64,000 bases of DNA from Candidatus Micropelagos thuwalensis (lineage in GTDB: Bacteria; Pseudomonadota; Alphaproteobacteria; RS24), in the NCBI RefSeq assembly GCF_000469155.1, contig NZ_AWXE01000004.1, positions 496,001 through 560,000 of the forward strand. The letters are read 5' to 3'. This document shows positions 7,618-63,822 of this stretch, in pieces. The notes under the pieces were generated by a model, which searched no databases, had not been told where the DNA came from, and saw nothing but the letters and a program-made list of their open reading frames with translations. A program made the translations under genes and the position numbers. Positions within the stretch are counted from its first letter, which is position 1. The number at the start of each line of letters is the position of its first letter.

Positions 7618-8541
7618 TTGACTGATTTTATTTTGCACCATCATGATCCGTCCCCATATGGCGAAAAAATTCGCAAACTTTTTGGAGTGAAAGGCATGGC
7701 CTGGAAATCTGTTCAAGTATCCATGGTGATGCCCCGACCCGATATGACTGCCCTTACCGGCGGCTACCGACGTATACCCGTCATGCAAATTGGGGGGGAT
7801 GTTTTTTGCGATACGCTCATCATAGCCCGCATTATTGATATGTTGCACCCTTCGCCGTCGGTATTTCAATCCGGTCTAATGGCTAATCTCGCAATTCAAC
7901 AATGGAGTGATATGATGTTCCGTCCCGGTGCAGCTTTGTCGCTGTACGAAAATGCAGAATATCTGCCTGATGATGTCGTCACTGACCGAGCTGCCTATTT
8001 CACTTTTCTTGATTTTGAAAATTTTGCAGAAGATGCACCACATTTTCGCAGTCAGTTTATTACTTTTGCCAGCCAGCTTAATCACCAGCTTGCGGACGGA
8101 CGCGCATTTCTGTTCGGCGATAATGCAGAATGGGGGGATATTAATGCCTATATGAATATCTGGATGGCTGGGGGAAACATCCCCTCCAGCGAGGACTTTC
8201 TGGCTAAATTTCCCCATATTTCAGGATGGTATGACCGCATGGATAAGTTTGGATGTGGCGAACGTACCGATATCGGGTCGTCTGATGCCCTAGAAATTGC
8301 GGTTAAAGCACAAAATAATGCGGGTGGTTTCCGTCTCGGCACACATAAAGAGGACATGTCTGGATGTCAGCCGGGTGACCCTGTGACAATCCAACCTGAT
8401 GATTATGGCATTGTCCCTGTTGCAGGATTTCTTGAAATGGCCAATGATGAAGAAATAATTATACGTCGCACACAAATTGATGTCGGGGAAATATATTTGC
8501 ATTTCCCCCGCAAAGGTTTCCGTATCGAGAAGAGTGCATAG
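7618..8541 (+). CDS. Glutathione S-transferase family protein with C-terminal extension
   Basis: A 307-residue protein whose N-terminal part (ILHHHDPSPYGEKIRKLFG, then YRRIPVMQIGG and a DT-type segment) is a thioredoxin-like GST domain, followed by a helical C-terminal domain to about residue 215. About 70 extra residues at the end (GDPVTIQPDDYGIVP...IYLHFPRKGF) look like a small beta-rich domain. The start is TTG at 7618; no ATG is available in frame, and the sequence begins exactly where GST domains normally begin. A 16-codon ATG frame at 7575 overlaps this start and may couple translation. It lies 19 bases before a Rieske gene, so it may process its product or detoxify epoxides or quinones. 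Confidence 0.83.
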   Translation: MTDFILHHHDPSPYGEKIRKLFGVKGMAWKSVQVSMVMPRPDMTALTGGYRRIPVMQIGGDVFCDTLIIARIIDMLHPSPSVFQSGLMANLAIQQWSDMMFRPGAALSLYENAEYLPDDVVTDRAAYFTFLDFENFAEDAPHFRSQFITFASQLNHQLADGRAFLFGDNAEWGDINAYMNIWMAGGNIPSSEDFLAKFPHISGWYDRMDKFGCGERTDIGSSDALEIAVKAQNNAGGFRLGTHKEDMSGCQPGDPVTIQPDDYGIVPVAGFLEMANDEEIIIRRTQIDVGEIYLHFPRKGFRIEKSA

Positions 8542-8560
8542 TTTATTTTGGGAGATTGGA

Positions 8561-9925
8561 ATGTCTGAAAAGTTAGATGTGAAATGGCCAATGGATTTAG
8601 GCGCACCCCCCGGAACGCTTGAGGCAAAAATGCCCCGCCCGGATGATATTGGGGCCGATATACCTGACCCGCAGCGATATTTCAGCCGTGACTATATGCA
8701 ACAAGAATGGGAACGGCTCTGGCCGAAAGTCTGGTTATTGGCAGGTGTCACGCCGGATCTCAAAGAGCCGGGTGATTTTATTACCCATCGCCACGGGCAT
8801 GAAGAGTTTCTACTCGTCCGCCACGAAGACAATAAAATCCGAGCCTTTTACAATGTCTGCCCACATCGTGGCAAACGTGTCTGCCAAGTTGAGCAAGGCA
8901 ATGTGCCTAAATTTTCCTGCCCGTTTCACGGCTGGCAATTCCACACAGATGGTGCGCTTGCATCTATCACAGATGAAGAAACCTATGATGCTGATTTAAT
9001 CGCACATCGTCCTGGCCTTACTGAAATTCGTTGCGAAACAATTGGCGGTCTGATTTTCATCAATATGGACGGCAATGCGCCGCCCCTCAGGGAGTGGATT
9101 GGCCTGCCGAAGGGATATATTGAAAATTACGAAATCGATAAAATGAATGTCATACGCCATGTGCGCACAGAATGGATGGCTAATTGGAAGACTGGCGTGG
9201 ATGCGTTTTATGAGTCCTACCACCTGCCGCATATTCACCCTCAAACACAAGGCGTTATGGAAGATTTTGTGCAAGTAGATCTTTATCCGAATGGTTTTAG
9301 CCGAATGATTGTGCCGATTGGAGTTAAATCCCACCGGGTGGCAGATCAGGAAACAATTGATCCCTATCAAACCTTCATGATGATGGAAGCAGGCATTGAT
9401 CCCGAGAACTTTAAGGGCTCAGCTCAGGATGTGCGTGTCGCTATTCAAAAAGCTAAACGCGAACGTGGTGAAAAGTTCGGTCTCGATTTCTATGATAATC
9501 TGACAGACGGGCAACTCACCGATAGCTGGGCTACTGGCTTTTTTCCGAATGTTCAAATCGGCATGCACCCTGAGGGCGTCTTCCTGATGCGATTTGTGCC
9601 GCATGCCACTGACCCTGAAAGATTTTATTACGACACAATGACCATGTTCCGTTATGTTGATGACCCCGGTTACACTGTACCCGGCTGGATGGGTCTTCCT
9701 GAAGGCATGGATGTGACCGGCGCAATTCGCCCTGAGATTGAACATTTCAGCGCCGATATGGAGGCTGATCTTGGAGAGGTGCTTAATCAAGATGTGGATT
9801 TGATTGCCAGCGTCCAGCAGGGTGTTAAATCACGCGGATTTAACGGCCCGCTCTGGTGTGAGCAGGAAGACCGTATCCGTCACTTACATCGTGAAATTGA
9901 TCGCTACATTAAACAGGAAATCTAA
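8561..9925 (+). CDS. Rieske non-heme iron oxygenase alpha subunit (B)
   Basis: A 454-residue Rieske oxygenase. Cluster ligands are C100/H102 (CPHRG) and C120/H123 (CPFHGW); iron ligands H221 and H226 are in ESYHLPHIH. The start at 8561 has GGGAGATTGG directly upstream; a longer frame beginning inside the GST gene is not supported by a ribosome site. The C-terminal domain has the usual hydrophobic substrate-pocket pattern and ends IDRYIKQEI, similar to oxygenases C and F (lengths and DxDLIASVQQG-type segment). It is co-transcribed with the GST. No beta subunit, ferredoxin or reductase is adjacent, so electrons must come from elsewhere. Confidence 0.93.
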   Translation: MSEKLDVKWPMDLGAPPGTLEAKMPRPDDIGADIPDPQRYFSRDYMQQEWERLWPKVWLLAGVTPDLKEPGDFITHRHGHEEFLLVRHEDNKIRAFYNVCPHRGKRVCQVEQGNVPKFSCPFHGWQFHTDGALASITDEETYDADLIAHRPGLTEIRCETIGGLIFINMDGNAPPLREWIGLPKGYIENYEIDKMNVIRHVRTEWMANWKTGVDAFYESYHLPHIHPQTQGVMEDFVQVDLYPNGFSRMIVPIGVKSHRVADQETIDPYQTFMMMEAGIDPENFKGSAQDVRVAIQKAKRERGEKFGLDFYDNLTDGQLTDSWATGFFPNVQIGMHPEGVFLMRFVPHATDPERFYYDTMTMFRYVDDPGYTVPGWMGLPEGMDVTGAIRPEIEHFSADMEADLGEVLNQDVDLIASVQQGVKSRGFNGPLWCEQEDRIRHLHREIDRYIKQEI

Positions 9926-9931
9926 GTTGGG

Positions 9932-11536
9932 TTACGGAGAATATTTTTCTCCAAGGTCAAATGATTTCAACTTAAACTTCTGAATTTTCGTCGCTGACAT
10001 CGGCCATTCGTTAACAAATACGACATATCTTGGAATTTTAAAATTGGATATTTGACCTTTACAATAGTCAATGATGTCCTGAGAAGAAACGTTTGCACCT
10101 GGCACCGCTTCAATGAAAACAGCTGCAACTTCGTCATATCGTTCATCTTCAATACCGACAACCTGTGAGAGAATAACACTAGGGTGAGTATTGATGTGAG
10201 ACTCTATTTCAAGTGCGGCAACATTTTCGCCACCAATCTTTAACATGTCTTTCCAACGACCGAGATACGATAAATAGCCATCTTCATCTAGCGCACCTAA
10301 ATCACCAGAACGATACCACCCATCATCAGTCATGGCATTCTGAGTTGCCTCTTCATCTTTATAATATCCTTCAAAAAGGGAATATCCACGTATTTGTATT
10401 TCACCTTTTTGATTTGCACCAAGCACCTCACTAGGGTTTTCAGGGTTCGAAATTCTAACTTCAATTCCTGGAAATGGCTTGCCACATGTGTTCAAACGCT
10501 TCTCCAAACTATCATCGACATCTCCATAACAAATAACGCCGCCGGCCTCTGTCATTCCAAAAGCAGAAACACCAACTCCGTGTTCGAAAGACTTATCATA
10601 AATTTCAAGAGTAGAAATTGGCGCAACATTATTGACGAGCCGAACAGAAGATAACGCCGCACCATCAAATTTTGGATGATTAATTATTTCATTTGTTAGT
10701 GTAGGGAATGCAATAAACCCAATTGTGATTTCGTCATTTATAAAAGTCTCAACAGCCTCATCAGCGCTGAAATACCTTGTTGCATACAAAGATGACATTG
10801 AACATATGGATGCTGTTAATGGTAAGATTGCCGACATATGGAAAAACGGTAAGGGGTCATACATTCGATCTTCTTCCGTCATCTGCCATCGCTCAACTTG
10901 TGCAAATCCATTACCAACAACCGACCTGTGTGATAGGCAGCATGCTTTTGGATTAGCCGTCGTCCCAGAAGTAAACATTATAAAGGCAATATCGTCACTT
11001 TTAATAATAGGCGGGTTGAAATTGCCTTTATTTAAATTTGAAAGAAATGATGTATCTGAAATATCTGAATTTGGTGGATTCTCAACAATATAAATTTTTT
11101 CCAGAACCGGGGCATCTGATAAATTTTGACTATTTTGGGTATCGTCCAAGTCAGAAAAAGCTTCATTCAATGTATTTAAAAAATTGGTTTCTTGCGCTGC
11201 ACTTGTGAAAAGAAACCTAACATCACCATGGGATAGCACATACTTGAGTTCAGCTACTTTATATCTGTTATTGATTGTAACTGGAATACATCCAGCTAAC
11301 ATCGCACCATAAAAGATTTCTAAATATTCAATTCCGTTTGGTAAGAGAATGCCAACTTTATCTCCATTTTGTGCACCTAGATTAGTTAAGCACTCAGCTC
11401 TTTTTAAAGCCCCCTGATAAAGATCAGAAAAACTGCATTTAACCCCATCCATACTGAGACAAAGCCCGCCTGGGTTTTTTTCTGCTGCATGTTTTAGCAA
11501 GTCTATTAGTGTTGGATTATCTGATCTTGATAGCAT
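9932..11536 (-). CDS. Acyl-CoA/AMP ligase (adenylate-forming)
   Basis: A 534-residue adenylate-forming enzyme expected to activate a carboxylic acid with ATP and coenzyme A. The phosphate-binding loop is FTSGTTANPKA near residues 188-198, slightly changed from the usual GTTGxPKG. Later motifs are WYRSGDLG and GRWKDMLKIGGENV, and the C-terminal catalytic Lys is in SATKIQKFKL. The ATG has AAGG upstream. It is third in the operon SDR, P450, ligase (gaps of 12 and 16 bases), which suggests that a P450-hydroxylated or oxidised side chain is turned into an acid and then a CoA thioester. The base composition here is noticeably A+T-rich. Confidence 0.9.
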   Translation of the reverse strand: MLSRSDNPTLIDLLKHAAEKNPGGLCLSMDGVKCSFSDLYQGALKRAECLTNLGAQNGDKVGILLPNGIEYLEIFYGAMLAGCIPVTINNRYKVAELKYVLSHGDVRFLFTSAAQETNFLNTLNEAFSDLDDTQNSQNLSDAPVLEKIYIVENPPNSDISDTSFLSNLNKGNFNPPIIKSDDIAFIMFTSGTTANPKACCLSHRSVVGNGFAQVERWQMTEEDRMYDPLPFFHMSAILPLTASICSMSSLYATRYFSADEAVETFINDEITIGFIAFPTLTNEIINHPKFDGAALSSVRLVNNVAPISTLEIYDKSFEHGVGVSAFGMTEAGGVICYGDVDDSLEKRLNTCGKPFPGIEVRISNPENPSEVLGANQKGEIQIRGYSLFEGYYKDEEATQNAMTDDGWYRSGDLGALDEDGYLSYLGRWKDMLKIGGENVAALEIESHINTHPSVILSQVVGIEDERYDEVAAVFIEAVPGANVSSQDIIDYCKGQISNFKIPRYVVFVNEWPMSATKIQKFKLKSFDLGEKYSP

Positions 11537-12746: not shown

Positions 12747-13535
12747 TTACCTAGCTGTGTAACCACCGTCTACAGGAATAACGGCGCCTGTCATCCAATT
12801 AGAATCTTCTGAAAAAAGAAAAGCTGACATATTTGAAACATCCATTTCCTGTCCAAGTCGGCGAAGGGGATAACGACTAGCCGTCTGAGATAAGCTCTCA
12901 TCAACTGTAATATCACTTTTAGCGGCTTCAAGTCTCTGTTTGTAAGTTTCTCGAACAAGTTCAGTCTCAATCGTGCCGGGTGCTATCGCGTTTATTCTGA
13001 TATTATATTCCCCATAATCAGAAGCCATTTGACGAGTAATTGCTGCAATTGCCCCTTTTGCGGCTGTATAGGCAACTAATTTTGGGAAACCATTCAGTGC
13101 ACAAATAGAAGATTGAAACACAATATTACCTGATTTTTGAGCAATAAAATGCGGTATCACATGTTTCGCACACAACCATTTGCCAGTTAAAGAAACTTTA
13201 ATGAGACGATCCCAATCTTCCAAAGAAGTCTCATGGGCTGCGCCGGTACCTGCAATACCAGCATTTGCTAACAATCCATCAATCCCATTATAGGTTTTTT
13301 CAGCCTCTGTAACCATCGCAATGATTTCAGTTTCTGAGCACATATCAGCCTGATGGTGAGATGCAACTCCGCCTCGGGAAGTGATTATATCTGAAGTTTC
13401 TTTGACGGTTTCAGGATTAACGTCAACACAAAAGACCTGCGCATCTTCTTCCGCTAATTTAATTGCTGAAGCCCTACCAAGACCTGAACCAGCACCAGTT
13501 ACAATAATTGATTTTTTATTCAGCCTACCTGTCAT
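12747..13535 (-). CDS. SDR oxidoreductase of the P450 operon
   Basis: A 262-residue classical SDR with TGAGSGLG (residues 13-20), VDVN acidic residue, NAG motif in LLANAGIAG, Ser in QSSICALNG and YTAAK. The stop lies 12 bases before the P450 start, so both are co-transcribed with the ligase. A likely role is to oxidise the alcohol formed by the P450 towards an aldehyde, ketone or acid. It is the first gene of the operon; the 225-base A+T-rich region upstream holds the promoter and a dyad element at 13638. Confidence 0.9.
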   Translation of the reverse strand: MTGRLNKKSIIVTGAGSGLGRASAIKLAEEDAQVFCVDVNPETVKETSDIITSRGGVASHHQADMCSETEIIAMVTEAEKTYNGIDGLLANAGIAGTGAAHETSLEDWDRLIKVSLTGKWLCAKHVIPHFIAQKSGNIVFQSSICALNGFPKLVAYTAAKGAIAAITRQMASDYGEYNIRINAIAPGTIETELVRETYKQRLEAAKSDITVDESLSQTASRYPLRRLGQEMDVSNMSAFLFSEDSNWMTGAVIPVDGGYTAR

Positions 13536-13760: not shown

Positions 13761-15521
13761 TTATTTCCGATTGGGTTCAAACCAAATTGGAGAGGAATAG
13801 GCTCTTTCACGAATTAAAGTTGGTATTTCCGGATCTAATGAAACATCATATCTTTCTTGATCATAAGTTGACCACCGCTTAGTAGGAACTTCCAGGACTC
13901 TGGCATAATAAAAAGCCTCTTGATCAATCTTAAAATCCTTGTCAACCCAAATACCAACAAAAGTATCTAGGCCTTTACCATCAGCAGACTCCATTACAGT
14001 GAAAACTTTTTCCCCAATCTGTCCGTCTTCATCAACCCATCCCTTAATTATTTGAAATTTATCAATTTTGCTGCCTTTTGGATCTTTAGATATTTTGAAA
14101 ACAAAACGAGGTTTCGCCTCACTATTTAGATTGGTAAAACTCCCCCCCATAGGAACCCCGTCTTCATATGCAGTTTTGTTAAAAAATTCTGGAGCTTCTA
14201 AGTCCTCACTTGCATAGTTCCAACCTCCAAAAAATTTAAGTAAAATTCTAGGTCCAGAGGTTGCGTATACCTCTCTTCTTTTCAAGGCATCAAAAATTGC
14301 TTCTCTGGTATTTTCCTTGGCCCAAACTGCAGTATACCCAGAAGCTGATAATCTCCAATTATCCCATAACCTGTCTCCCAAACTAGAGCTGGTTCTTTCT
14401 TCACTAGGAAGTGAGTCAACAAATTTTCCATAAAAGTTTTCATCGTCGGATGTGCTCAAAGCATTATGCGTATCGGTTCCCCCAACTAAACCAAATTTAA
14501 ACGGGTTGGTGCCATATTTGTTTGATAAGACCAAACCGTTTTTTAATGCGGCGCGGGCATACTCTCCCTGAAGCATTTTTTTGTCTTTTGGTTCCATCCG
14601 AAGGTTACCCTGATCCCAAGTTTCAAAATCTGCATACTCATCTGTCGGAGAAAGATATGGATGGGCTTCAGCATCGCCTTTTACTTGGGTCACCTCGTAA
14701 AGAGGTTCCCATTTTTGTCTTTTTGCTGAATATGAAGCATCAAAATCACTTCCATCAACACGTTTATCAGAGAACATTACGCCATTGGAAACATTGCCAT
14801 TATGAGGAATGGCAATTACCTGACCTCCAGTTGACTGCTCGTATTTCCCCATGAATTTCCATAAATCCTCTGGGTCAGGACTATCTAAGGCCGAGAAGGG
14901 AAGCATTTTTTGAGCCTTGGACATTCCATCCCTGTAAACGACGACTCGATGCAAATTGTCTCCATTAATCATTGACGTCCACTCAAATCCAATCAATGCT
15001 GAAAAAACACCCGGCTCATTATATCTTTCTGCAAAGTCTAATAATTTTGACCAAGCGCTCTTATTAAAATCCTCTGGCAGTAACTCAATATCTTTTTGTC
15101 TTTCAATCATTTGAACATATTCGCGTGAAATAGGCGCTTGGGTTCCTGATTGAAAATAATTCAGCCATCTCTGACCCAGAGCAGAATTCTTTAATTTTGG
15201 GTCATCCCGCTCTAGTCCCAAAAATAATCCTAGGTATTCTGCGTGATCAGAAACCAATAAAAAATCTAGTGGGGTACTTAATTGAGCCAGCTCACCATTT
15301 GGCGCCTTTACAGGTAACCCCTTGGCAAACTCATATGCCTTATCTGGGCCAAGAGCGGTATTACCAAAAGAATATGCATCAAATGAAAAATTACTATGAA
15401 CATGTAAGTCACCCCAAAGGAGTACTTTTTCATAATCATTTTTACCCTCAGCTAATAAATCTTGCGGGTAAAAGATAAGTGTCAATAAAAGAGAATAAAC
15501 AAATAAAGAAAAACTTTTCAT
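13761..15521 (-). CDS. DUF3604 protein, exported PHP-like putative metallohydrolase (copy 1)
   Basis: A 586-residue protein with a hydrophobic N-terminal signal sequence ending near LLAEG, so probably periplasmic. The PHP-like metal-binding motifs are clear: GDLHVHSNFSFDA near residue 37, SDHAEYLG, IPHNGN and GGTDTHN. DUF3604 members resemble metal-dependent phosphoesterases, but their substrate is not established. It lies downstream of TonB receptor 2 on the same strand with a terminator between them, so it may be partly co-expressed. A second copy, with a lipobox, lies at 60748. Pairing of DUF3604 with receptors suggests it processes imported material in the periplasm; this is inference. 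Confidence 0.88.
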   Translation of the reverse strand: MKSFSLFVYSLLLTLIFYPQDLLAEGKNDYEKVLLWGDLHVHSNFSFDAYSFGNTALGPDKAYEFAKGLPVKAPNGELAQLSTPLDFLLVSDHAEYLGLFLGLERDDPKLKNSALGQRWLNYFQSGTQAPISREYVQMIERQKDIELLPEDFNKSAWSKLLDFAERYNEPGVFSALIGFEWTSMINGDNLHRVVVYRDGMSKAQKMLPFSALDSPDPEDLWKFMGKYEQSTGGQVIAIPHNGNVSNGVMFSDKRVDGSDFDASYSAKRQKWEPLYEVTQVKGDAEAHPYLSPTDEYADFETWDQGNLRMEPKDKKMLQGEYARAALKNGLVLSNKYGTNPFKFGLVGGTDTHNALSTSDDENFYGKFVDSLPSEERTSSSLGDRLWDNWRLSASGYTAVWAKENTREAIFDALKRREVYATSGPRILLKFFGGWNYASEDLEAPEFFNKTAYEDGVPMGGSFTNLNSEAKPRFVFKISKDPKGSKIDKFQIIKGWVDEDGQIGEKVFTVMESADGKGLDTFVGIWVDKDFKIDQEAFYYARVLEVPTKRWSTYDQERYDVSLDPEIPTLIRERAYSSPIWFEPNRK

Positions 15522-15550
15522 TTAAAACCCTCGTGGTGACATGTGTTTAT

Positions 15551-15583
15551 AAAAAAACGGGCCGAATAATTATATCCGGCCCG
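15551..15583 (-). terminator. Rho-independent terminator after TonB receptor 2
   Basis: Arms CGGGCCG (15558-15564) and CGGCCCG (15577-15583) form a GC-rich hairpin. On the minus strand it is followed by seven T residues (15551-15557). It lies between TonB receptor 2 and the DUF3604 gene downstream, so expression of the latter would need read-through or its own promoter. Confidence 0.85.
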
Positions 15584-15606
15584 TAAATTTACAGAAACTA
15601 ACTCAA

Positions 15607-17907
15607 TTAGAATGAGTAGGCTGCCTTAACTCCATACGTCGATGGTGTGCCACCCCATGTCAATCTGGTTAGTGCATTATCTAGAGCAAAGTCGTGATAT
15701 TCTTCGTCAGTAATGTTTTTACCAAATAGAGTGAGCTTCAGGCCATCACTATCACGCGTGTATGAAACACTGGCATCTAGCAGTCCATATGACTCAGTCG
15801 CAATTGCCGCAGTTCCTGTGGCATCATTAGTGAAATCATCAGTAAAGGCATATGAAACTCTGAAATCGAGCTCTGAGCCACTTGCCATTGGGACATTGTA
15901 GCTTGCGGCCACAGTATAGGTTAACTCTGGCACTCTTTCGAAATCCAACGCAGCTGCAGCAGCGGGATCAGTTACTGGATCGTAACCTGGTGTGCCGTCA
16001 GCATCAAAACCAGAGAAACTGTCATAACCTGCATCTGTGTAACCTAGCGCCCCCTCGAGAACTAAACTATCTGTAACGAAGGCTTTAGTCTCGATTTCAA
16101 TACCCTCAATCGTTGCCTCTGCAGCGTTGATAAGTCTCTGGATGTTACCAGTGTCACAACCTGGAGTGCCGAGTTGACATGGCTCGAGTGCTAATTTTTG
16201 AATGTCATCATATTTAGCAGAGAAGACAGCGACATTCAAAAGCAGTTTGTCATCGTTTAGTAATGACTTGAAACCTAATTCAAAACTCTCGACTGTTTCA
16301 GGACCAGGGCGGCTATTTAAGAAAGAGTCAGTAGTGCGAGCACGAGCATCAAAGGAACCACTACGGAAACCTTCGGTGTAACTTGCATATACATTAACAT
16401 CATCATTAACGAAATAAGTCAGAGCAACCTTCGGTGTGGTGTCGTCAAATTTACCACCATTAGTTAAACCGGCGTTAGCACCTTGGCATCCTGTAAAGTC
16501 AGTATTGCATGAGCCTATGGCGTTAAAGAGGACATCTTTCTCCTCCTCTGTATAACGTGCGCCAACTGTTAACTTGAGCTGATCTGTCATCATATAATCA
16601 AGCTCAGCAAATATACCCATTGTCTCATGTTCAAGTTCTGTTGCGCCAGATATATCAAGTGAGCCAATTAGACGCCTTTCGCCAACAAAGAATTCTTGAT
16701 CAAAAGTACTTACACCGACCACATAACTTAATTTATCTGAAACGTTTGCAGCATACCTTAGTTCCATGGTGGTCTGTTCCTGCTCCTCATGGTTATCAGG
16801 GAAGTGGAAAATAGTAAACGGAGTTCCGTCAAAGTCTGTGCTTGAGTCGTAAGTCAGCTCTCTGTAAGAGGCTATACCCGTCAATTTACCATTCTGAGTT
16901 TGATAATTGAACTCTGCAATAAATGTATCCGTTTCAAGGTCATTGCCACCCATTAAGTTGTGATTAATCTCATAGGGATCACTAGGAGGTGTATAACCAA
17001 ATAATTGAGAAAGTCTTGGGGCGGCGGTTGGGTGAACGAAATTTCTACTATTAGCTGTGCCGCTCTTATCTCTTAAGAACTCAGCCATTAGAGTTATATC
17101 CAAGTTATCACTAGGCGTAAAATAGAGCATTGGGCGGACGATAGTTAAGTCAACGTCAGGCTTAGTTCCTGAGGGACCTTCCCCTGCAAGAGTAACTGCA
17201 GCTCCACCACGAAATGTTGTTGACGCTACAGAAGGAACAATTGTCCCTCCGTTATTATCTTCCCAGTAACCATCACGGCTCCGGCTCATAAATGCAACTT
17301 TGGCAGATACCTTGCCTTCAACCAGCGGACCTTCAATACTTGCGGATACATCAAGTCGGTCATAATCACCAGCAACTATGTTAACTTTACCACCAAATTC
17401 ACCTGTTGGTCGGGCTGTTCTTACAACTATCGCGCCACCAGTAACATTTCTACCAAGCAGAGTACCTTGAGGGCCTCTCAAAATCTCTACAGACTCTCTG
17501 TCAAACATATCAAGGTTTGCACCGACTGGGAAACCAAGATAGACACCATCGACGATGACACCGACTGATGGATCAAGAGATCTTGTAGTACCACTTACCC
17601 CGATACCTCTGATTAGAAAATTAGGTGTGGATGCAAAAGTAGCGGATGGGTGAAGCGTAGCGTTTGGAGCTAATCTGCCAACATCTGTAAGATCAATCGA
17701 GTCTGTAGCCTCAATTAAATCAGCATTCACTGCTGTGACACTAGTCGCGATATCCTGAACGGAAATCCCCGCGGCACGTTTCTGTGAGGTGACAACAATT
17801 TCATCAATTGCTTGAGCCTTAGCCTCACTATACATTGCTCCGGCAAACGCAGTCATTAAAACTGATGCGGATACCAGAACCTTTTTTAATGGTAATTTAG
17901 TTATCAT
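15607..17907 (-). CDS. TonB-dependent outer-membrane receptor 2
   Basis: A 766-residue TonB receptor. The signal peptide ends near SEAKAQA and is followed by the TonB-box-like IDEIVVTSQKR. The plug domain includes LRGPQGTLLGRNVTGG, the barrel has TYF-type strands, and the C-terminus is aromatic (KAAYSF). A GGAGGGG site precedes the ATG. It lies between a DUF3604 gene and a LysR regulator, and its 120-base upstream region contains a striking pair of CTTATAAG palindromes, so it is probably regulated, perhaps by that LysR protein. Its substrate is unknown but is likely that of the neighbouring P450/ligase or MFS operons. Confidence 0.93.
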   Translation of the reverse strand: MITKLPLKKVLVSASVLMTAFAGAMYSEAKAQAIDEIVVTSQKRAAGISVQDIATSVTAVNADLIEATDSIDLTDVGRLAPNATLHPSATFASTPNFLIRGIGVSGTTRSLDPSVGVIVDGVYLGFPVGANLDMFDRESVEILRGPQGTLLGRNVTGGAIVVRTARPTGEFGGKVNIVAGDYDRLDVSASIEGPLVEGKVSAKVAFMSRSRDGYWEDNNGGTIVPSVASTTFRGGAAVTLAGEGPSGTKPDVDLTIVRPMLYFTPSDNLDITLMAEFLRDKSGTANSRNFVHPTAAPRLSQLFGYTPPSDPYEINHNLMGGNDLETDTFIAEFNYQTQNGKLTGIASYRELTYDSSTDFDGTPFTIFHFPDNHEEQEQTTMELRYAANVSDKLSYVVGVSTFDQEFFVGERRLIGSLDISGATELEHETMGIFAELDYMMTDQLKLTVGARYTEEEKDVLFNAIGSCNTDFTGCQGANAGLTNGGKFDDTTPKVALTYFVNDDVNVYASYTEGFRSGSFDARARTTDSFLNSRPGPETVESFELGFKSLLNDDKLLLNVAVFSAKYDDIQKLALEPCQLGTPGCDTGNIQRLINAAEATIEGIEIETKAFVTDSLVLEGALGYTDAGYDSFSGFDADGTPGYDPVTDPAAAAALDFERVPELTYTVAASYNVPMASGSELDFRVSYAFTDDFTNDATGTAAIATESYGLLDASVSYTRDSDGLKLTLFGKNITDEEYHDFALDNALTRLTWGGTPSTYGVKAAYSF

Positions 17908-18027: not shown

Positions 18028-18962
18028 TTAATTATTACTTTGAAAGCCAACAAAAGCGTCTCTTTCCAAAGCAAGGCTTTCAACCATCTCCAATTCAATG
18101 GGCGACAGTATTGCATTAGACCTGGTGACTAGCTTTATTTTTAAAGTTAAATCAAAATCATCTATTTCTAATACTTTTAACAGACCTTGGTTAACTTCAT
18201 TACTAAAAAATTTTTCAGGTGACATAATCAAGTAGTCTGTCTCAGAAACTATGGGTACTGCAAGCTTTACACTTTCTAAATTCCCTGCAGGAAAGTTTTT
18301 TTCAAGCTTATCGATTTGCTGCTGAGTTTCCAGTCTGTCAAAGATATATTTTTTAGAACTAACAGTATGATATGTAATAACTGGATATTCAATTAGGTTA
18401 ACACATTTAATGTTATCAAGCGTTGTTAGCGGATGATCAACGCGGGCATAAAAGTTTACCTTCAAATTGATAAAATCTTCTTGAGTAATTTCTTCGTCAA
18501 CTGCATCAAGATGATTAGCAGTTATAAAAAAATTAATCTCTTGTCGGAGCAGCTTTTCCCTGAGTTCATACCAATATCCGCTGATAAAATTGGGATAGAC
18601 TTCTTGATTTTTACTGCAAAAACTTTTTAAAGCGCCAGGCAAAATACTCTCAGCTACAATATTTCCAACACCAAAAACAACACTGCCTGTATTTTTTTTG
18701 TTATACTTTTGAGCCGGAACAAAACATCGTCGACATTTTTAACTATATTGCCACCCTCGTTAGATAAGAAATCACTATAAATATTAGAACGAACCATGCC
18801 GTTCGTATCACGATAGAAAAGATTCAGATCAAGCTTTTCCTCAAGTTTTGAAATAGCCATGCTTAAAGCTGGCTGTGAAATTCCAGCGTGTTTTGCGGCT
18901 TGACTAAAATTTTTATGTTTATTTAAAAGCGTTACGTATTTTAGCTCTTTAAGAGTAATCAT
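18028..18962 (-). pseudogene. LysR-type transcriptional regulator, interrupted by a frameshift
   Basis: Two frames together make one LysR protein of about 311 residues. The first part (from the ATG at 18960-18962) has the winged-helix motif FSQAAKHAGISQPALSMAISKLEEKL. It stops after an aberrant tail at 18654. In the next frame the effector-binding domain begins with TGSVVFGVGNIVAESILPGAL and runs to 18028. The break falls at a run of eight A residues on the coding strand (T-run at 18692-18699); nine would restore the frame. No other damage is seen, so this may be a sequencing error, slippage, or a recent mutation. It is divergent from the MFS operon and follows TonB receptor 2, both plausible targets. 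Confidence 0.85.
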
Positions 18963-42727: not shown

Positions 42728-42833
42728 TGTCTTTAAGAATATTTTGAAATCTACAGAAATATATATTCTTCACTACTAGCTTTTAAAAAAAGCCAGCGGC
42801 ACTCCCTAAATAACTAGGTTGTTAAGAAGAATA

Positions 42834-43616: not shown

Positions 43617-43736
43617 AGCCGGAAACTAACCTTTTTACTTCACCCTGACAAATTATTTAGTATCAATTAAACGCAATAGAATGTTCTAACCATAAGAGTA
43701 GATAGTGCCCAACAGAAATTATAGAAGGTTCCCACT

Positions 43737-44855: not shown

Positions 44856-44877
44856 GATCTAAAGCTCAAATGTTCTG

Positions 44878-45648: not shown

Positions 45649-45652
45649 TGGA

Positions 45653-56409: not shown

Positions 56410-58698
56410 ATGCAATTCACTAAGAAACTGCCAAATTACTTGGCAGGGATAGTGACTGGTTTGTTTGTTTTGTCATTTGTTGGCACTCAATACGACCTGT
56501 CAATCGTCTCCAAGGCGCAAGCCCAGGCGACAGATGAAATTATCGTTACTGCCCGTAAGCGGTCAGAGTCTATTCAAGATGTTCCAGTTGCAGTATCGGC
56601 ACTGAGTGCAGCACAACTCGAAAAAGGCAATATCCCAATGACGCAAGATTTGGGTAAGCTTACTCCAAACGTTGTGCTTCATGACATGGCATATGCTGGT
56701 GCGGGTCTTTCAGCTTCAATTCGTGGCCTTAACTACGATGACACTGAAAAATCAAATGATCCTGCAGTGGGTGTAACTATTGACGGTGTGTTTGCTGCCA
56801 ATAATGGTGGTGTGAACCTCGACTTGTTTGATGTTGAGTCAATCGAAGTTCTTCGTGGTCCACAGGGAACACTTTACGGTCGTAACACTATCGGTGGTGT
56901 TATTAACATCAAACGTTCAAAGCCCACCAGGGAACTTGGAGCAAAATTCCAAGTTGGAGTTGAAGAAGACAACACACAAGATTTACAAGCGGTGGTTAAT
57001 TTTCCAATTGGTGACAGAGCTGGCTTGAAAGTTGCTGTCAGAGATCTTACTGCAGACAACTGGATGTATAATGTCACCAACCAGAGAACGGACAAAGATT
57101 TCAAGGACGTCCAATCTCACTCAATTAGACTTGAAGCTGATATTACTGACAATATTACAATTGACTTGATCTATGACGACATTGATGACCAGTCTCAAAG
57201 AAACAATTTGGCAATTACATCTAATACTCAGCCATTTACCTTCTGCACTGGTATCCCGGTTGCAACTCCTCCGATACCAGCTGACGCATTAAAATGTGCA
57301 AGCGCCTCTGCGGATCTCTCAAGAGCAAATGATTATTCGACAACATATGATTTGATTCCTCAATTCATGACATATGAAACTGAAAATCTAACCATGAACC
57401 TTGAAATTGATCTTGGGAATCACACTTTGAAGTCGATTACTGGTGACCAGGACTCTGAGGAGCTTTTTACAATTGTTTCTTGGGGTTCACCAACTCCAGT
57501 ATTCCCAGTAACACGCGAAATCTCATTTGATCAAACGTCTCAGGAGTTCCAGCTTTTATCTGATTATGATGGCCCATTAAATTATGTTTTAGGTTATTAC
57601 TATCTCGATGCGACTTTCGACCAAAAGTCAGGGCCTGTACAGAACTTTGTTTCTGGTCAAGAACTAGAGGCTACAGCCATTTTTGGTGAAGTTTCTTATG
57701 ACATCAGTGATGAGTGGACCGCTACTTTGGGCCTAAGGTACACAGAGGAAGAAAAAGATTTCTTTGTTAGAAATTTTGCACCTCTTGCCCAAGGTGTTGC
57801 TGACGCAACTGCTTTCCAGCGAACCGGCGCGACACCTGCCGGTGGTTTTCGTAATGCTGTGGATCAAATTTATGAGGATGACTATATCCAACACAGATTT
57901 ATCATTGAAAGAAACTTCGACACCGGTATGGCATACGCATCCATTTCTAATGGCTTTAGAAGTGGTGGTATCTTTGCTCGTTGTACTGATCCAGTTACAT
58001 GCGCACCATTTGGTACTGAAGAAGTAATTAACTACGAAGCTGGCCTCCGATTAGAACCATCCGATGCTCTGGTATTTAATGTCACTGCATTTATGGCAGA
58101 TTATAAAGACAAGCAAGAGCAGGTTACTACTAATGGGCTAGTTTGTGGTAACCCTGCAGAAGCGACTTGTACTTTTAGTCTTAACGCGGCTGAAGTGTCA
58201 ATTTCTGGTCTAGAACTAGAAAGTCGTTACTATCCAAGTGAAAGTTTAAGCCTAAATGCCACTATTGGTATCTTGGACGCTGACTATGACTCATATGATG
58301 ATGGTGGGGTAGATATCTCTGATATTGCTAAGCTTAGAATGGCTCCTGAAGTGACGTTCAACCTTGGGTTCGACTATGACGTCAGCCTCCCAGGTGGTGA
58401 CTTGACTCTTTCAGGTAGCTTTAACGGTCGTGATTCTTATTGGGGTCAGGCGAATTGGAAAACTTTCAACTTTGCACAAGGGCCAAACATTGAGGTAGAT
58501 TCATACGAGTCACTTGATTTGTCAGCTTCATTCCGAACTGAAACCTCAAATGGTAACCAAATCAAAGTTATTATCTTTGGTAATGATATCCTGGAAGAAG
58601 GTGGGCGTATTGCTCGTCCATTTGACGCCGGTGCATTCGCATTTGCTGCCCCTGCTAAGAGACAGCATTTTGGTATGAAAATTGGATATGAATTCTAA
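56410..58698 (+). CDS. TonB-dependent outer-membrane receptor 3
   Basis: A 762-residue TonB receptor. The signal peptide ends near SKAQAQA, followed by a TonB-box-like TDEIIVTARKRSESIQDVP. The plug includes LRGPQGTLYGRNTIGG and the protein ends in an aromatic residue (MKIGYEF). AGGAGGG precedes the ATG. It is followed by a strong terminator. It differs from receptors 1 and 2 in the barrel but has the same overall plan, so the three may recognise related compounds. Confidence 0.94.
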   Translation: MQFTKKLPNYLAGIVTGLFVLSFVGTQYDLSIVSKAQAQATDEIIVTARKRSESIQDVPVAVSALSAAQLEKGNIPMTQDLGKLTPNVVLHDMAYAGAGLSASIRGLNYDDTEKSNDPAVGVTIDGVFAANNGGVNLDLFDVESIEVLRGPQGTLYGRNTIGGVINIKRSKPTRELGAKFQVGVEEDNTQDLQAVVNFPIGDRAGLKVAVRDLTADNWMYNVTNQRTDKDFKDVQSHSIRLEADITDNITIDLIYDDIDDQSQRNNLAITSNTQPFTFCTGIPVATPPIPADALKCASASADLSRANDYSTTYDLIPQFMTYETENLTMNLEIDLGNHTLKSITGDQDSEELFTIVSWGSPTPVFPVTREISFDQTSQEFQLLSDYDGPLNYVLGYYYLDATFDQKSGPVQNFVSGQELEATAIFGEVSYDISDEWTATLGLRYTEEEKDFFVRNFAPLAQGVADATAFQRTGATPAGGFRNAVDQIYEDDYIQHRFIIERNFDTGMAYASISNGFRSGGIFARCTDPVTCAPFGTEEVINYEAGLRLEPSDALVFNVTAFMADYKDKQEQVTTNGLVCGNPAEATCTFSLNAAEVSISGLELESRYYPSESLSLNATIGILDADYDSYDDGGVDISDIAKLRMAPEVTFNLGFDYDVSLPGGDLTLSGSFNGRDSYWGQANWKTFNFAQGPNIEVDSYESLDLSASFRTETSNGNQIKVIIFGNDILEEGGRIARPFDAGAFAFAAPAKRQHFGMKIGYEF

Positions 58699-58753: not shown

Positions 58754-59821
58754 CTAAAATTGCATGCTGCGTTCTACAAACCAGAAACACGCAACAAAGC
58801 CGATTGTGTAAAATATAAATTTGTAACCCATGTTCATACAGAAGTTATATGCAGAGCCATTAAATTTCTGGGCTGCATAAACGAGCAGAATCACTGGTAT
58901 AACAAATACAATTTGCCCGGCCTCAACTCCCAAATTAAAAAAAAGCAAAGCCGCAACCAGCCCGTCCTCAGGAAACCCAATACTGATAAGTTCATTTGCA
59001 AAGCCCAAACCGTGCACCAGTCCGAAAAATAGAGAAATCAAAACTGGGTAGCTTCGCGCCAGGGTTTTTCTTTCGGTTTGCAACAACTCGACACAAACCA
59101 GAATAATGCTCAATGAAATAAGTGTTTCGACATAAATGACTGGCAGAGTAAGAAAATTCAATGACGCCGCCGCCAATGTGAAACTATGGCCAATCGTGAA
59201 GCCGGTTACTGCCAAAAATATTTGCCCAGGCATGGTCGTTAACGCCATAAGACAAATGAGAAATAAAAGATGGTCCCAACCCTTTAAAATGTGACTGAAG
59301 CCAAGCTCAAGATAAGCCTTCGCCATGAGAGATGAGGAGTTGGATGACGGTGCCAGCGACTGTGGGATCGCCCAGGAAAGCTCATCCGGTTTAAGCAGGA
59401 ACATGGCTGTGTTTTCATCGCCCTCCAAATTATTTTTATGCAAGCGCACAAAACTTGAGAGTGATGGATTGCCCAATGGATATGTCAACGTCAACATAGG
59501 CGCTAAATTCGGCGTGTTACCTGAACAAAGAAAATCGGCCCCGCCATAATAAGCCTCGCCCGTAAAGCGCTCCGGATAGGTGCGTATTAAATTACAGGCA
59601 GTTGCAAAGTTAATTATCGGATGCTTACGCGGAGATAAGGAGCCGGGAATTTTCCATTCGAGCCTCAACTCACCTGGGCGGGAATCATCTTGATAAATAT
59701 CAATCAATACCGGACGCGGATCATGCGCCGCTGCAGGCGAGATAAGAGATGCACCTAAAGCCTGAAACAGGCCTACACTAAGCATAATAAAAAAAGCAAG
59801 CTGTATATGCCGAGACATCAT
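58754..59821 (-). CDS. HupE/UreJ-family membrane protein with long exported N-terminal domain
   Basis: A 355-residue membrane protein. A signal sequence ends near PAAAHD, then about 150 residues form an extracytoplasmic domain (LIDIYQDDSRPGELRLEWKIPG and GEAYYGGADFLC), followed by six or so hydrophobic segments. The region LGFSHILKGWDHLLFLICLMAL and GLVHGLGFANEL match the HupE/UreJ_2 pattern, including His and Asp residues that in HupE bind nickel. The metal or substrate here is unknown. Its start overlaps the parvulin stop (TGATG), so the two are translationally coupled. Confidence 0.87.
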   Translation of the reverse strand: MMSRHIQLAFFIMLSVGLFQALGASLISPAAAHDPRPVLIDIYQDDSRPGELRLEWKIPGSLSPRKHPIINFATACNLIRTYPERFTGEAYYGGADFLCSGNTPNLAPMLTLTYPLGNPSLSSFVRLHKNNLEGDENTAMFLLKPDELSWAIPQSLAPSSNSSSLMAKAYLELGFSHILKGWDHLLFLICLMALTTMPGQIFLAVTGFTIGHSFTLAAASLNFLTLPVIYVETLISLSIILVCVELLQTERKTLARSYPVLISLFFGLVHGLGFANELISIGFPEDGLVAALLFFNLGVEAGQIVFVIPVILLVYAAQKFNGSAYNFCMNMGYKFIFYTIGFVACFWFVERSMQF

Positions 59822-60678
59822 CAGTCGTAAATAACAGTGTATTTTTTTCGCAAGCGATCGGCATGAGCCTGACGTGCCGCCTTGTTTAACGAAAGCTTCA
59901 AATCAAAAAGCGCCTTCGTCCTGACATCTGCCAGCATTGGTATTTTGGCATCGGTTTTATTAACCACACGCACAAGATGATACCCGTGGCGCGACGCAAA
60001 TGGCCCTTGCCACTCTAAACCGGATGAAAGGCCAAACACAGAAGAGGCAAAATTTTCTCCAAAATGTGCGGCAATATCTTCTTGTGACTTGCGCTGGTAA
60101 GATTTGTGATAGATGAATCGATCCCCCTGCTCCGCAATTGCCAGAGAATTTTCATTATTGAGGGCTGACAAAACTTCTTGAGCTTTTTCTCTTGCCTCAG
60201 GAACAAAATAAATATGCGTAAAACTTATCTCGGCAGGGAGGCGATAATTCTCTTTATGCGTCTCATACCAATCGGGCAATAATGCCTCGGCTTTTTTGAG
60301 TATGTCTCTCTGTGTGTCAGCCAAAAATTCTAGTTTCTGAATTAAGCGCTGGCGAATGATGAAATCGCCCTCGTCCAACCCCATCCGGCGCGCTTCCCGC
60401 ACCAATACTTCCGCGCGTATAAAGTCTTCTGTGAGCGCGTTGCGTTCATCGGTAGACATGACTTCCAGCTTGTTGGCAATAGCAGGTAAGCCAAAACTCT
60501 GACTTTTGTATTGATAAAATTCTTTCAAGCGCGCCTCTGAAACAATAATCTCATTCTCTGGTATAGGTTTTTGAGCCAGAAAAATCACATACAGAGCCGC
60601 TGAAAAAAGAATAAAAATAAATAGAGGTTCGCGCATAAAGCGCGGCACATCACGCTTGATTTGCATTGTGGAACTCAC
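59821..60678 (-). CDS. Parvulin-type peptidyl-prolyl isomerase (PpiC/SurA-like), membrane anchored
   Basis: A protein of about 285 residues with one N-terminal transmembrane helix (EPLFIFILFSAALYVIFLAQ), a helical chaperone-like region, and a PpiC rotamase domain (AEISFTHIYFVPEAREKAQ to GPFASRHGYHLVRV). It should sit in the inner membrane facing the periplasm and help fold exported proteins, perhaps the HupE or DUF3604 proteins encoded with it. The start is either GTG at 60678 or ATG at 60666; neither has a strong site. It lies 69 bases after the DUF3604 gene. Confidence 0.86.
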   Translation of the reverse strand: MSSTMQIKRDVPRFMREPLFIFILFSAALYVIFLAQKPIPENEIIVSEARLKEFYQYKSQSFGLPAIANKLEVMSTDERNALTEDFIRAEVLVREARRMGLDEGDFIIRQRLIQKLEFLADTQRDILKKAEALLPDWYETHKENYRLPAEISFTHIYFVPEAREKAQEVLSALNNENSLAIAEQGDRFIYHKSYQRKSQEDIAAHFGENFASSVFGLSSGLEWQGPFASRHGYHLVRVVNKTDAKIPMLADVRTKALFDLKLSLNKAARQAHADRLRKKYTVIYD

Positions 60679-60747: not shown

Positions 60748-62688
60748 TCATTCGGCAATTGGCGTATACCAGATTGGCGATGAATATACTCTTTCTTGAA
60801 TAGCAACTGGAACATCATCAGGCACATCAAGATTAAACCTTTGAGCATCATAAGTTGTCCAACGCGGTGTTGGTATTTCAAGAACACGGACATAGTAAAA
60901 AGCCCTCAAAGATTTGTCAAAAGATGGGTCTGTCCAGACTGTTGCCAGATTTTCCGAACCGATTGTATTTGTATAAGAAGCCTCAGAGACATTAACAGTT
61001 GACCCAACAGGCTGCAGTGCACCAGATTTTGGATCCACTTCACGGCCATCTGACCAAGCAACATCATAGACTTGCTCTTTCAATTCACCGTTAGCATCCA
61101 ACCAACCCTTCACGACCTGCACCCTATCAAGATTAGCTCCATCGGGGTCTTTAGATGCAGTTATCATAAACCGAGGGGCAGCCTCTTTATCATTTGCAAT
61201 AAATAGGTCACCGCCCATTGGAACGCCTTTTTTATAGCCAAGCGTTGCATAATCTGGTTGTTCTAAATCAGTCTCATCAAAATCCCAGCCGCCGAAGAAA
61301 CGCAAAACTATGCGTGGGCCAGTTGTCGCGTATACTTCCTTACGTTTGATAGCATCAAAAATCGCTTCGCGAGAGTTTTCCTCTGCCCAAACAGCTGCAT
61401 AACCAGCCGCAGTGAGCAACCTGTTGTTCCAAAGCATACCACCCATTTTACTCTCTAGGCGCTCTGGTGTCGGCTCGGAATCAACAAATTTACCATAATA
61501 ATTGTCACTGTCAGCTGTAGCCATAACTGTATGAGAATCCGTACTCCCAATCATGCCAAATTTAAACGGGTTCACACCCAACTTCTCCTCCAGCGCAAGG
61601 CCTGTTTTAAGTGCGGGGCGCGCATAGCTTCCAGTATACGCCACAACCTTTTTGTCTTTAGGAATCACATTTGAGTTGATATCTGTTTCATCCCATCTCT
61701 CAAAATCAGCAAAAGGGTCATTTGGTGAAACTAGAGGGTGAGTTTCGGAGTCACCCTTCACCTGTGTCATTTCAAGAACTGGCTCCCATCTGATACGAGT
61801 GTTGGCGTATTGCGTGTCAAGTGCTGCACCTGAAACACGCTCTCTAGAATACATCCGACCCTCTGACAAATTACTGTTATGTGGGATTGCGAGCACCTCA
61901 CCGCCTGTTTTCTTTTCATATTCCTCTAAACGTTCCCAAAGGTACTCAGGGTCGTTATTTTCAGTTGATGAAACTGGAATAGCGCCAAGTGTTTTTTCTG
62001 CACCATCTCTAAAAATAACCACACGGTGCATATTGTCGCCGTCTATCATTGAAGTCCACTCATATCCGGAAAAGGCTGAAAATTTACCAGGGTCATTGTG
62101 CCTTTCTGCGGTCTCAACCATTTCAGCCCATACGCCTTTAAAGAAAGCCTCATCCGGATACTCAATTTTTGGTTTAGAGTCTGAGGACGATGTATCAGCA
62201 TCAAATGAGCCTACCCATTCTTGAATAATACTTTGTAGATCATCATCGTCGAGCCAATTTTTCCAACGCTTACCTAATTCGGTTTTTTCAATGCCATGCT
62301 TTTGGTCCATGATACTTGCAATAACCCCCAAAAATTCTGCATGGTCAGACACCAACAAAAAATCGAGAGGTTTTTTTAATTGCGCGATGTCGCCCGTATG
62401 CGCTTCAACGGGCTCTCCCTTTGCAAACTTAAATGCGTCATCCGCGGTCATCATCCGATTGCCAAACGAAAATGAGTCCATTGATAATCTTGAGTGAACA
62501 TGCAGGTCACCCCAATATACTCCATCAGGTGATGACCCTGACGTTAACCGCTCATTTGAAAGAGAAGAAACGCCACCATTATCTTTTTTTTGAGTTTCTT
62601 GCTGGTCACCGCAACCAATCAAAATGACACTCAGAAAAAAGACAAAAATAAGAGTTAGGCCGTGGCGACCAAAGTGAGACATTGTCAT
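60748..62688 (-). CDS. DUF3604 lipoprotein, PHP-like putative metallohydrolase (copy 2)
   Basis: A 646-residue DUF3604 protein. The start at the ATG encoding MTMSHFG has GGAGGG seven bases upstream; an in-frame ATG overlapping that site is unlikely. A signal peptide ends in lipobox ILIGC, so it is probably a lipoprotein. Metal-site motifs: GDLHVHSRLSMDS, SDHAEFLG, IPHNSN and GSTDSHT. It is a clear paralogue of the protein at 13761 and heads the operon DUF3604, parvulin, HupE. The family's substrate is not established. A strong dyad (62703-62727) abuts its ribosome site. Confidence 0.9.
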   Translation of the reverse strand: MTMSHFGRHGLTLIFVFFLSVILIGCGDQQETQKKDNGGVSSLSNERLTSGSSPDGVYWGDLHVHSRLSMDSFSFGNRMMTADDAFKFAKGEPVEAHTGDIAQLKKPLDFLLVSDHAEFLGVIASIMDQKHGIEKTELGKRWKNWLDDDDLQSIIQEWVGSFDADTSSSDSKPKIEYPDEAFFKGVWAEMVETAERHNDPGKFSAFSGYEWTSMIDGDNMHRVVIFRDGAEKTLGAIPVSSTENNDPEYLWERLEEYEKKTGGEVLAIPHNSNLSEGRMYSRERVSGAALDTQYANTRIRWEPVLEMTQVKGDSETHPLVSPNDPFADFERWDETDINSNVIPKDKKVVAYTGSYARPALKTGLALEEKLGVNPFKFGMIGSTDSHTVMATADSDNYYGKFVDSEPTPERLESKMGGMLWNNRLLTAAGYAAVWAEENSREAIFDAIKRKEVYATTGPRIVLRFFGGWDFDETDLEQPDYATLGYKKGVPMGGDLFIANDKEAAPRFMITASKDPDGANLDRVQVVKGWLDANGELKEQVYDVAWSDGREVDPKSGALQPVGSTVNVSEASYTNTIGSENLATVWTDPSFDKSLRAFYYVRVLEIPTPRWTTYDAQRFNLDVPDDVPVAIQERVYSSPIWYTPIAE

Positions 62689-62702
62689 ATTATTACCCTC
62701 CA

Positions 62703-62727
62703 TTTAATGGTTATTTTAACCATTAAA
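62703..62727. promoter_or_regulatory. Perfect 11-base inverted repeat abutting the DUF3604 ribosome site
   Basis: TTTAATGGTTA (62703-62713), loop TTT, TAACCATTAAA (62717-62727). On the minus strand it lies directly upstream of the GGAGGG site of the DUF3604 lipoprotein gene. As DNA it could be an operator for the divergent DUF3604 and MDR genes; as RNA it could form a hairpin next to the ribosome site. Confidence 0.55.
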
Positions 62728-62811: not shown

Positions 62812-63822
62812 ATGAAAAATCGCAGCATTATTCTAGCGAAACGACCTATAGGCAATCCTAAGTCCGATGACTTCGCTTTGCACGAGGGAGAGTTGCCGGA
62901 TATTCAAGACAATGAAATTCTTGTCAAAAATTTTGCCATTTCTCTTGATGCTGGATTTCGCAATTGGATGAATGAAGACGCTGGCGATGAAATTCTCCCC
63001 GCCATGCCTTTGGGTGAGCCTGTAATGGGGCTTTCGCTTTGTGAAGTAATTGAAACAAAAAACTCAGAATATGCAGTCGGTGATAAATTAATGGCCCGTT
63101 TTGCGTGGCAGGAATACTCAATCGGCAAGCCAGGAGATTTTATTGCCAAACTGCCCAGAGACCTATCCTTCCCATATAGTTATTATCTTGGAGTTCTTGG
63201 TGATACCGGTATGTCTGCTTACTTCGCGCTCACTGAAATTGCGCCTCCTAAAGAAGGACAAACTGTTCTCATAAGTGCGGCAGGTGGGGCGGTAGGGTCT
63301 ATTGCCGGGCAAATCGCTAAAATTTATGGCGCTCGTACTGTTGGTATTTCTAGTAGCCCTGAAAAATGTAACTTTCTTATCAATGACCTTGGCTATGATG
63401 CAGCCGTAAACCGCAAAGCGCCAGAGGGTCAAGCAGAAGCGATTAAGGCGGTCTGCCCTGACGGGGTTGATGTTTTTCTTGATAATGTCGGTGGTGAAAC
63501 GTTACAAGCCGCCATCACAAATATGAACCATCGCGGTAGGATTGTAATGATTGGCGCTGTGACGCATTACACATCTGAAGGCCCGCCCACTGCTCCAAAT
63601 AATTTGTTTGAGCTATCTTCTAAAGAAATCACAGCACAAGGTTTAATGACGCATTTCAGGCATGACAAATATGACACCGTCCGCCAGCAACTTGAAACAT
63701 GGCTCTCCGAAGGCAAGCTTAAAAGCTTTGAGCACAAACTTAACGGTATCGAAAATGTTGGAGTGGCTTTTTGCCAAATGTTTGATGGCAAAAATTTCGG
63801 TAAGACAGTTGTGGATCTATAG
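62812..63822 (+). CDS. Zinc-independent MDR oxidoreductase (fourth copy)
   Basis: A 336-residue MDR enone-reductase-like protein: RPIGNPKSDDF at the start, AISLDAGFRNWM, ISAAGGAVGSIAGQIAK and DNVGGETLQAAITNM. It is most like the copy at 31586 in its N-terminus (AKRPIGNP versus KKRPIGEP). GGGG lies about seven bases before the ATG. It is divergent from the DUF3604 operon and followed 20 bases later by a MaoC-like gene, which suggests a CoA-linked reduction and hydration sequence. Confidence 0.92.
   Translation: MKNRSIILAKRPIGNPKSDDFALHEGELPDIQDNEILVKNFAISLDAGFRNWMNEDAGDEILPAMPLGEPVMGLSLCEVIETKNSEYAVGDKLMARFAWQEYSIGKPGDFIAKLPRDLSFPYSYYLGVLGDTGMSAYFALTEIAPPKEGQTVLISAAGGAVGSIAGQIAKIYGARTVGISSSPEKCNFLINDLGYDAAVNRKAPEGQAEAIKAVCPDGVDVFLDNVGGETLQAAITNMNHRGRIVMIGAVTHYTSEGPPTAPNNLFELSSKEITAQGLMTHFRHDKYDTVRQQLETWLSEGKLKSFEHKLNGIENVGVAFCQMFDGKNFGKTVVDL

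Follow-up and report, generated by a model that had tools for sequence, protein, structure and literature searches.

Two DUF3604 sites in the window

Two genes of the DUF3604 family (PF12228) lie in the 64,000-nucleotide stretch of Candidatus Micropelagos thuwalensis analysed here (contig NZ_AWXE01000004.1, positions 496,001 to 560,000), which is called the window below. Both stand close to genes for TonB-dependent receptors, and the original prediction regarded this pairing as a sign that the family acts on imported material in the periplasm. A survey of many genomes gives a different picture: the general partners of DUF3604 are a PPIC-type peptidyl-prolyl isomerase and a HupE_UreJ_2 permease, not a TonB receptor, and linkage with receptors belongs to one clade, in which both window copies fall.

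At the second site, DUF3604 copy 2 (60748..62703, minus strand, 651 residues, PF12228) heads a three-gene run on that strand. It is followed by the isomerase gene (59821..60678, minus strand, PF13145), whose product has an N-terminal membrane anchor, and by the permease gene (58754..59821, minus strand, PF13795), which overlaps the isomerase gene and encodes a predicted N-terminal domain of metal-binding (Ang-1-like) type. The receptor of this site, receptor 3 (56410..58698, plus strand, PF00593 and PF07715), is 2,050 bp from copy 2, in agreement with the distance of about 2 kb noted earlier, but it is convergent and the isomerase and permease genes intervene. These two genes had been passed over, and they are the larger finding. 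Divergent from copy 2 is an ADH_N_2/zinc-type oxidoreductase gene (62812..63822, plus strand, PF16884 and PF00107). A third DUF3604 gene (L015, 9392-11449, genome C4) lies about 2.7 kb past copy 2, just outside the window; its product of 685 residues has a membrane-anchor-like N-terminus, and neither a cassette nor a receptor accompanies it.

At the first site, copy 1 (13761..15521, minus strand, 586 residues, PF12228) directly follows receptor 2 (15607..17907, minus strand, 766 residues, PF00593 and PF07715) on the same strand, as had been claimed, with a gap of 86 bp that holds a terminator-like hairpin with a T-run (15557..15584, minus strand). Copy 1 carries the PHP motifs and, by alignment, is shorter than copy 2 in the C-terminal domain, where about 30 residues are absent. 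Both receptors have the Plug and beta-barrel domains, and the DUF3604 matches are far above the curated cut-off of 20.4 bits (copy 1, E 5e-206, 686 bits; copy 2, E 4e-237, 789 bits). Upstream of receptor 2 a LysR-type regulator (18028-18962, minus strand) is split into two reading frames of 102 and 204 residues; a single open reading frame (ORF) of 307 residues takes its place at the same-genus loci L131 and L136, and the split is either a broken gene or a sequence error.

The N-termini agree with the view that one copy is exported by a signal peptide and the other lipidated, since copy 1 begins with a hydrophobic signal-like stretch and copy 2 has a lipobox (LIGC). The same tendency runs through the family: a strong hydrophobic N-terminal stretch is found in 155 of the 196 usable DUF3604 N-termini vs 5 of 93 short-chain dehydrogenase (SDR) controls, which upholds an envelope location as a prediction.

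A predicted metallohydrolase and its cassette

The AlphaFold2 model of copy 2 (predicted local distance difference test score, pLDDT, 90.3; predicted template modelling score, pTM, 0.89) is divided into a PHP domain at about residues 60-463 and a C-terminal beta-sandwich at 464-651. Structure comparison with VIA-align places residues 56-526 nearest to the PHP phosphoesterases BVU_3505 (3e38; Z 16.3, 233 residues, 3.9 A) and TM0559 (2anu; Z 15.7), followed by EndoQ (Z 12.6), PsfC (Z 12.5), RNase AM and polymerase PHP domains. DUF3604 differs from the first two in being much longer and exported, in having the extra beta-sandwich, for which the matches are middling (Z about 6), and in an identity of only 14-17%. 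Foldseek with the model alone gave a weak result, 2anu_F being the top match at E 1.6e-3. Among solved structures the DUF3604 profile found no match at E up to 1, and a phmmer search for relatives returned one chance-like match (E 0.34) and nothing usable. From the order of the motifs, H68, H70, D76, H121, E215, H275, E311, D389 and H391 are candidate metal ligands. Thus DUF3604 looks like an exported PHP-fold metallohydrolase, with both fold and export predicted.

The family might also be non-enzymatic, that is, a metal- or ligand-binding protein of the envelope that has kept the PHP fold. This would suit the silence of the literature we searched, in which no substrate or activity of DUF3604 is reported: a query for PF12228 returned nothing, and one for DUF3604 a single paper, a Chlamydia transposon list. 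All nine candidate ligands are, however, invariant in 65 of 65 diverse sequences, and we hold this explanation to be very improbable.

The CehA/McbA family (NF038032) was tried as a home for DUF3604 and rejected. By eye, in comparison with L227 and L228, the two share the PHP-type motif order (HxH...D, DFL..DH, GxE, IxH, DxH), a YATTGP-like stretch and a similar C-terminal end. However, the scores of 17.7 and 19.8 bits are far below the curated cut-off of 80, and DUF3604 has larger insertions. Because of these scores and of a weak hhalign link, DUF3604 was filed as PHP and not as CehA. To our knowledge, a cassette of PPIC and HupE genes is not known for CehA.

To see how general the run at the second site is, we annotated 100 regions around DUF3604 genes with local profiles, gene calls being ORF picks that put profile hits first, with no trained gene finder. 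The set excludes both places of G144 (of the same genus as G247), the fragments in G147, G224 and G453, and the majority of places in the rest of the source family (G006, G011, G013-G024 and part of G003, G004, G007 and G012). Outside the source family (84 DUF3604 genes, 42 genomes, 25 family groups), 54 of the 84 genes have PPIC within 5 kb and 51 have HupE_UreJ_2 within that distance, the latter in 36 of the 42 genomes and 21 of the 25 families. When 77 named loci were added and one locus without a called DUF3604 gene was dropped, a contiguous one-strand series DUF3604-PPIC-HupE was counted at 72 of 180 loci, both genes in another order at 13 and only one of them at 6; in 57 of the 72 the PPIC and HupE genes overlap. 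The cassette was seen in Pseudomonadota, Bacteroidota, Gemmatimonadota, Myxococcota, Planctomycetota and Thermodesulfobacteriota, and also in genomes in which no TonB receptor was found (G045, G604 and G565). Co-occurrence in whole genomes tells the same: among 289 genomes of the class, HupE_UreJ_2 is present in 27 of the 29 with DUF3604 vs 45 of the 260 without.

The model of the window permease (pLDDT 87.2) comprises a beta domain at about residues 33-155 and a membrane part. The fold of the N-domain matches Zn-bound ZrgA (Z 9.2), PA4063 (Z 8.9) and 9gce (Z 8.3), which is the Ang-1 domain of a HupE/UreJ-2 protein with Cu bound; this last match came only from the second structure comparison of HupE, and no sequence match goes with it. 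Searches with the HupE profile against solved structures gave only 5jmb at E 0.33, and Foldseek with the model gave no PDB match at E up to 0.001. The alignment with 9gce begins where the mature protein probably does: residue 1 of that chain falls on residue 33 of the model, the first aligned pair of the given range, and His33 is the likely mature N-terminus (...SPAAA followed by HDPRP, the cleavage site being inferred). In the aligned HupE partners the residue after such an AxA-type site is His in 35 of 45 and Asp in 10 of 45. The window permease has the motif HX5DH together with PF13795, and the motif occurs in 85 of 85 members of the main HupE cluster. In its predicted fold the N-domain thus matches a metal-binding domain of Ang-1 type.

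Permeases of this sort were described in 2025 as anglerases (PMC12537917), and the parts of that paper available to us report Cu and Ni binding by one Ang-1 domain and metallophosphatases near an actinobacterial Ang-2 type, while naming neither DUF3604 nor an isomerase as neighbour. The window protein is like its Ang-1 HupE/UreJ-2 permeases in PF13795, in the His after the predicted signal peptide and in the predicted beta-sandwich N-domain; the partners of DUF3604 that begin with Asp differ. A literature search combining HupE UreJ with peptidylprolyl isomerase found nothing.

Linkage with TonB receptors in one clade

Receptors were sought with a profile grown from receptor 2, which may miss distant ones. 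In the source genus (6 genomes, 25 DUF3604 genes) a receptor was found within 5 kb of 9 genes, where 1.9 were expected, and none was found near the 13 DUF3604 genes in 4 genomes of other genera of the source family. Outside that family it was found within 5 kb of 9 of the 84 genes (expected 4.2) and within 500 bp of 6 (expected 0.5), all six being upstream and co-directional. The linked genes gather in the phylogeny: in an IQ-TREE tree of 121 genes, L066_907 is the only gene with a co-directional receptor within 500 bp to fall outside a clade of 15 rows (support 97) that includes both window copies.

For a larger tree we gathered further relatives by DUF3604 similarity only, dropping genes shorter than 450 residues and the loci L155, L156 and L222, whose genomes were already represented. 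The resulting FastTree tree of 214 rows has a clade of 58 (support 98), again with both window copies, in which 33 of the 58 genes have a receptor within 3 kb vs 7 of the 156 others, or 24 of 49 vs 7 of 140 without the source genus; the Fisher values for such counts ignore phylogeny. Collapsed at 60% identity, receptor-linked clusters number 10 of 15 in the clade and 4 of 58 outside. Accordingly, the expectation that DUF3604 genes adjoin TonB receptors beyond this genome is borne out in one clade and fails for the family. A role on imported material, which we infer from the linkage, may likewise be retained for the clade of the window copies; as a family rule it fails, because the general partners are PPIC and HupE_UreJ_2 even where no TonB receptor was found.

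The clade linkage bears on a first rival, in which DUF3604 serves broadly in the periplasm as a phosphoesterase or sulfoesterase, acting on esters that come from the envelope or are scavenged, and receptors are neighbours merely because catabolic islands collect genes in receptor-rich genomes. Sulfatases within 6 kb of DUF3604 occur at 16 loci outside the clade and at none inside, and catabolic genes are common around clade members. The source genome itself (G000; 1.96 Mb, 99.4% complete, six DUF3604 loci, 17 TonB plugs) has two further DUF3604-PPIC-HupE cassettes (L013, 3491-10907; L014, 8978-13461), with very divergent paralogues of about 755-761 residues; one of them has an arylsulfatase and an alkylsulfatase-type metallo-beta-lactamase as neighbours, and next to the other is a gene that by eye is mutL-like. 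Receptor density tells against such a passive origin: around clade genes it is 0.173 per kb in the first kb and ten-fold lower, 0.018, at 5-7.5 kb, whereas outside the clade there is no peak (0.016 and 0.021 per kb), though many of those genomes have 20-48 receptors. We consider this rival unlikely. The same flat profile led us to reject a general pairing of TonB receptors with DUF3604.

The second rival is metal acquisition, in which the receptor would import a metal-ligand complex, DUF3604 would hydrolyse the ligand in the periplasm, and the HupE-type permease, catching the freed metal with its N-domain, would carry it into the cell. Co-directional groups in the order receptor-DUF3604-PPIC-HupE at L057, L162 and L187, and receptor-PPIC-HupE-DUF3604 at L171 and L109, have the look of such a system, and the N-domain of HupE is similar to domains that bind Cu and Zn. 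The model for it is PfeE, which acts on ferri-enterobactin and whose fold is not known to be related to that of DUF3604. In P. aeruginosa the gene of this periplasmic siderophore esterase adjoins the receptor gene pfeA, according to the part of PMC8001512 consulted. However, the cassette is present in G045, G604 and G565, where no TonB receptor was found, the surroundings of the clade genes are catabolic, and HupE lies within 5 kb of only 19 of the 58 genes of the TonB-linked clade vs 85 of 156 outside. Metal acquisition is likewise an improbable account, on a level with the general esterase.

Neighbours clustered within 6 kb of DUF3604 genes show what sets the clade apart. A cluster of Rieske oxygenases occurs at 15 clade loci and 0 outside (six members were checked by Pfam); near clade genes and outside respectively, CoA ligases occur at 13 vs 7 loci, cytochromes P450 at 10 vs 6 and ADH_N_2-type oxidoreductases, such as that beside copy 2, at 14 vs 6. 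In the window, copy 1 is followed downstream on its strand by an SDR gene (12747..13535, minus strand), a cytochrome P450 gene (11553..12740, minus strand, PF00067) and a gene for an AMP-binding enzyme of acyl-CoA ligase type (9932..11536, minus strand, PF00501), beyond which lies a Rieske ring-hydroxylating oxygenase alpha subunit gene (8477..9925, plus strand, PF00848 and PF00355) of the clade-only cluster. HTCC2207 (L153) has SDRs, Rieske, a glyoxalase-like protein, DUF3604, an oxidoreductase and an SDR on one strand, and HTCC2080 (L202) a thiolase-like protein (by eye), Rieske, ThuA and DUF3604; several of these identities were confirmed by Pfam.

A proposed periplasmic entry step and its weighing

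The reading that we favour is that DUF3604 is an exported PHP metallohydrolase made with the help of a biogenesis cassette, and that one clade was recruited to TonB-fed catabolic islands; taken as a whole, we see its chances as evenly balanced. Since export is predicted, the enzyme would fold and acquire its metal outside the cytoplasm, a need which PPIC and a metal-binding permease would fit: the membrane-anchored isomerase may help the exported chain fold, and the extracytoplasmic N-domain of HupE_UreJ_2 may bind metal and serve the metallation of DUF3604. The clade with both window copies would then have joined islands of TonB receptors, Rieske and P450 oxygenases, SDRs and CoA ligases. There the receptor might admit a large or ester-linked compound, too large or polar for porins; DUF3604 might cleave an ester-type bond in the periplasm, with phosphate, carboxyl, carbamate or sulfate as candidates; and the core product might cross the inner membrane to the oxygenase pathway.

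Hydrolysis in the periplasm ahead of ring hydroxylation in the cytoplasm, as proposed for the clade, has a working precedent in Pseudomonas C5pp, in whose carbaryl pathway a periplasmic carbaryl hydrolase acts first (PMC8292978). CehA resembles DUF3604 in being exported and in its catabolic setting, and the same source places a TonB receptor upstream of cehA in strain CDS-1. A literature search for PHP domain, TonB-dependent receptor and periplasmic together found nothing.

More tentatively, and with less than even probability, DUF3604, PPIC and the Ang-type HupE might form a portable make-and-metallate cassette, in which the permease serves a periplasmic enzyme and not the cytoplasm. DUF3604 would then be the first enzyme put forward as a client of anglerase permeases, and in marine bacteria one of its clades would have come to catalyse the periplasmic entry step of Rieske pathways fed by TonB receptors.

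Several results weigh against the favoured reading. Neither cassette gene is present at 89 of the 180 loci, where the cassette would therefore need to work in trans, and 2 of the 29 genomes with DUF3604 have no HupE_UreJ_2, one of them holding a DUF3604 fragment only. HupE proteins are known as metal importers, and delivery to a periplasmic enzyme is therefore a guess. The hhalign probabilities of DUF3604 with CehA-type rows are 5.6 and 18.8, and a reported substrate or activity is absent, as said above. Within the clade a receptor is missing from the 3 kb around 25 of the 58 genes; some of these 25 lie at contig ends. Its borders are soft, because L046 and L053 lie inside the clade of the first tree and outside that of the second, and because the search for relatives used linked genes as its alignment. 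The receptors of different lineages are mostly 26-30% identical, which gives no reason to assume a shared substrate, and the receptors compared did not fall into one orthologue group for the clade.

Hairpins also separate receptor and DUF3604 genes in the source genus and in several pairs of unrelated lineages. Among 15 pairs with an upstream co-directional receptor within 300 bp, a terminator-like hairpin reaches -11 kcal/mol or lower in 8 (L046, L057, L085, L088, L131, L136, L210 and the window). The arms of the hairpin at 15557..15584, unlike its variable flanks, are conserved across three genomes of the genus. Co-transcription of receptor and DUF3604 is doubtful, since a hairpin lies between them at the first site and the receptor is convergent at the second; the conserved hairpins argue against a simple receptor-hydrolase operon, and they may be usual for receptor genes.

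What is gained is a predicted fold and chemistry for an unstudied family, with a recurring partner set and a clade whose uptake role can be tested; a concrete candidate for the client of metal-binding HupE permeases, which so far lack an agreed purpose; and a way to approach the question of which compounds PS1, SAR92 and sphingomonad-type bacteria import via orphan TonB receptors. Two further places in the source material may be mentioned. Thiolase-like, ThuA and Rieske genes at 41169-47074 of the window resemble the surroundings of the HTCC2080 DUF3604 gene (L202, 4440-7825), and in the C1 DUF3604 region a predicted exported protein of 579 residues with no Pfam family (L012, 16679-18418) lies just upstream of a TonB receptor.

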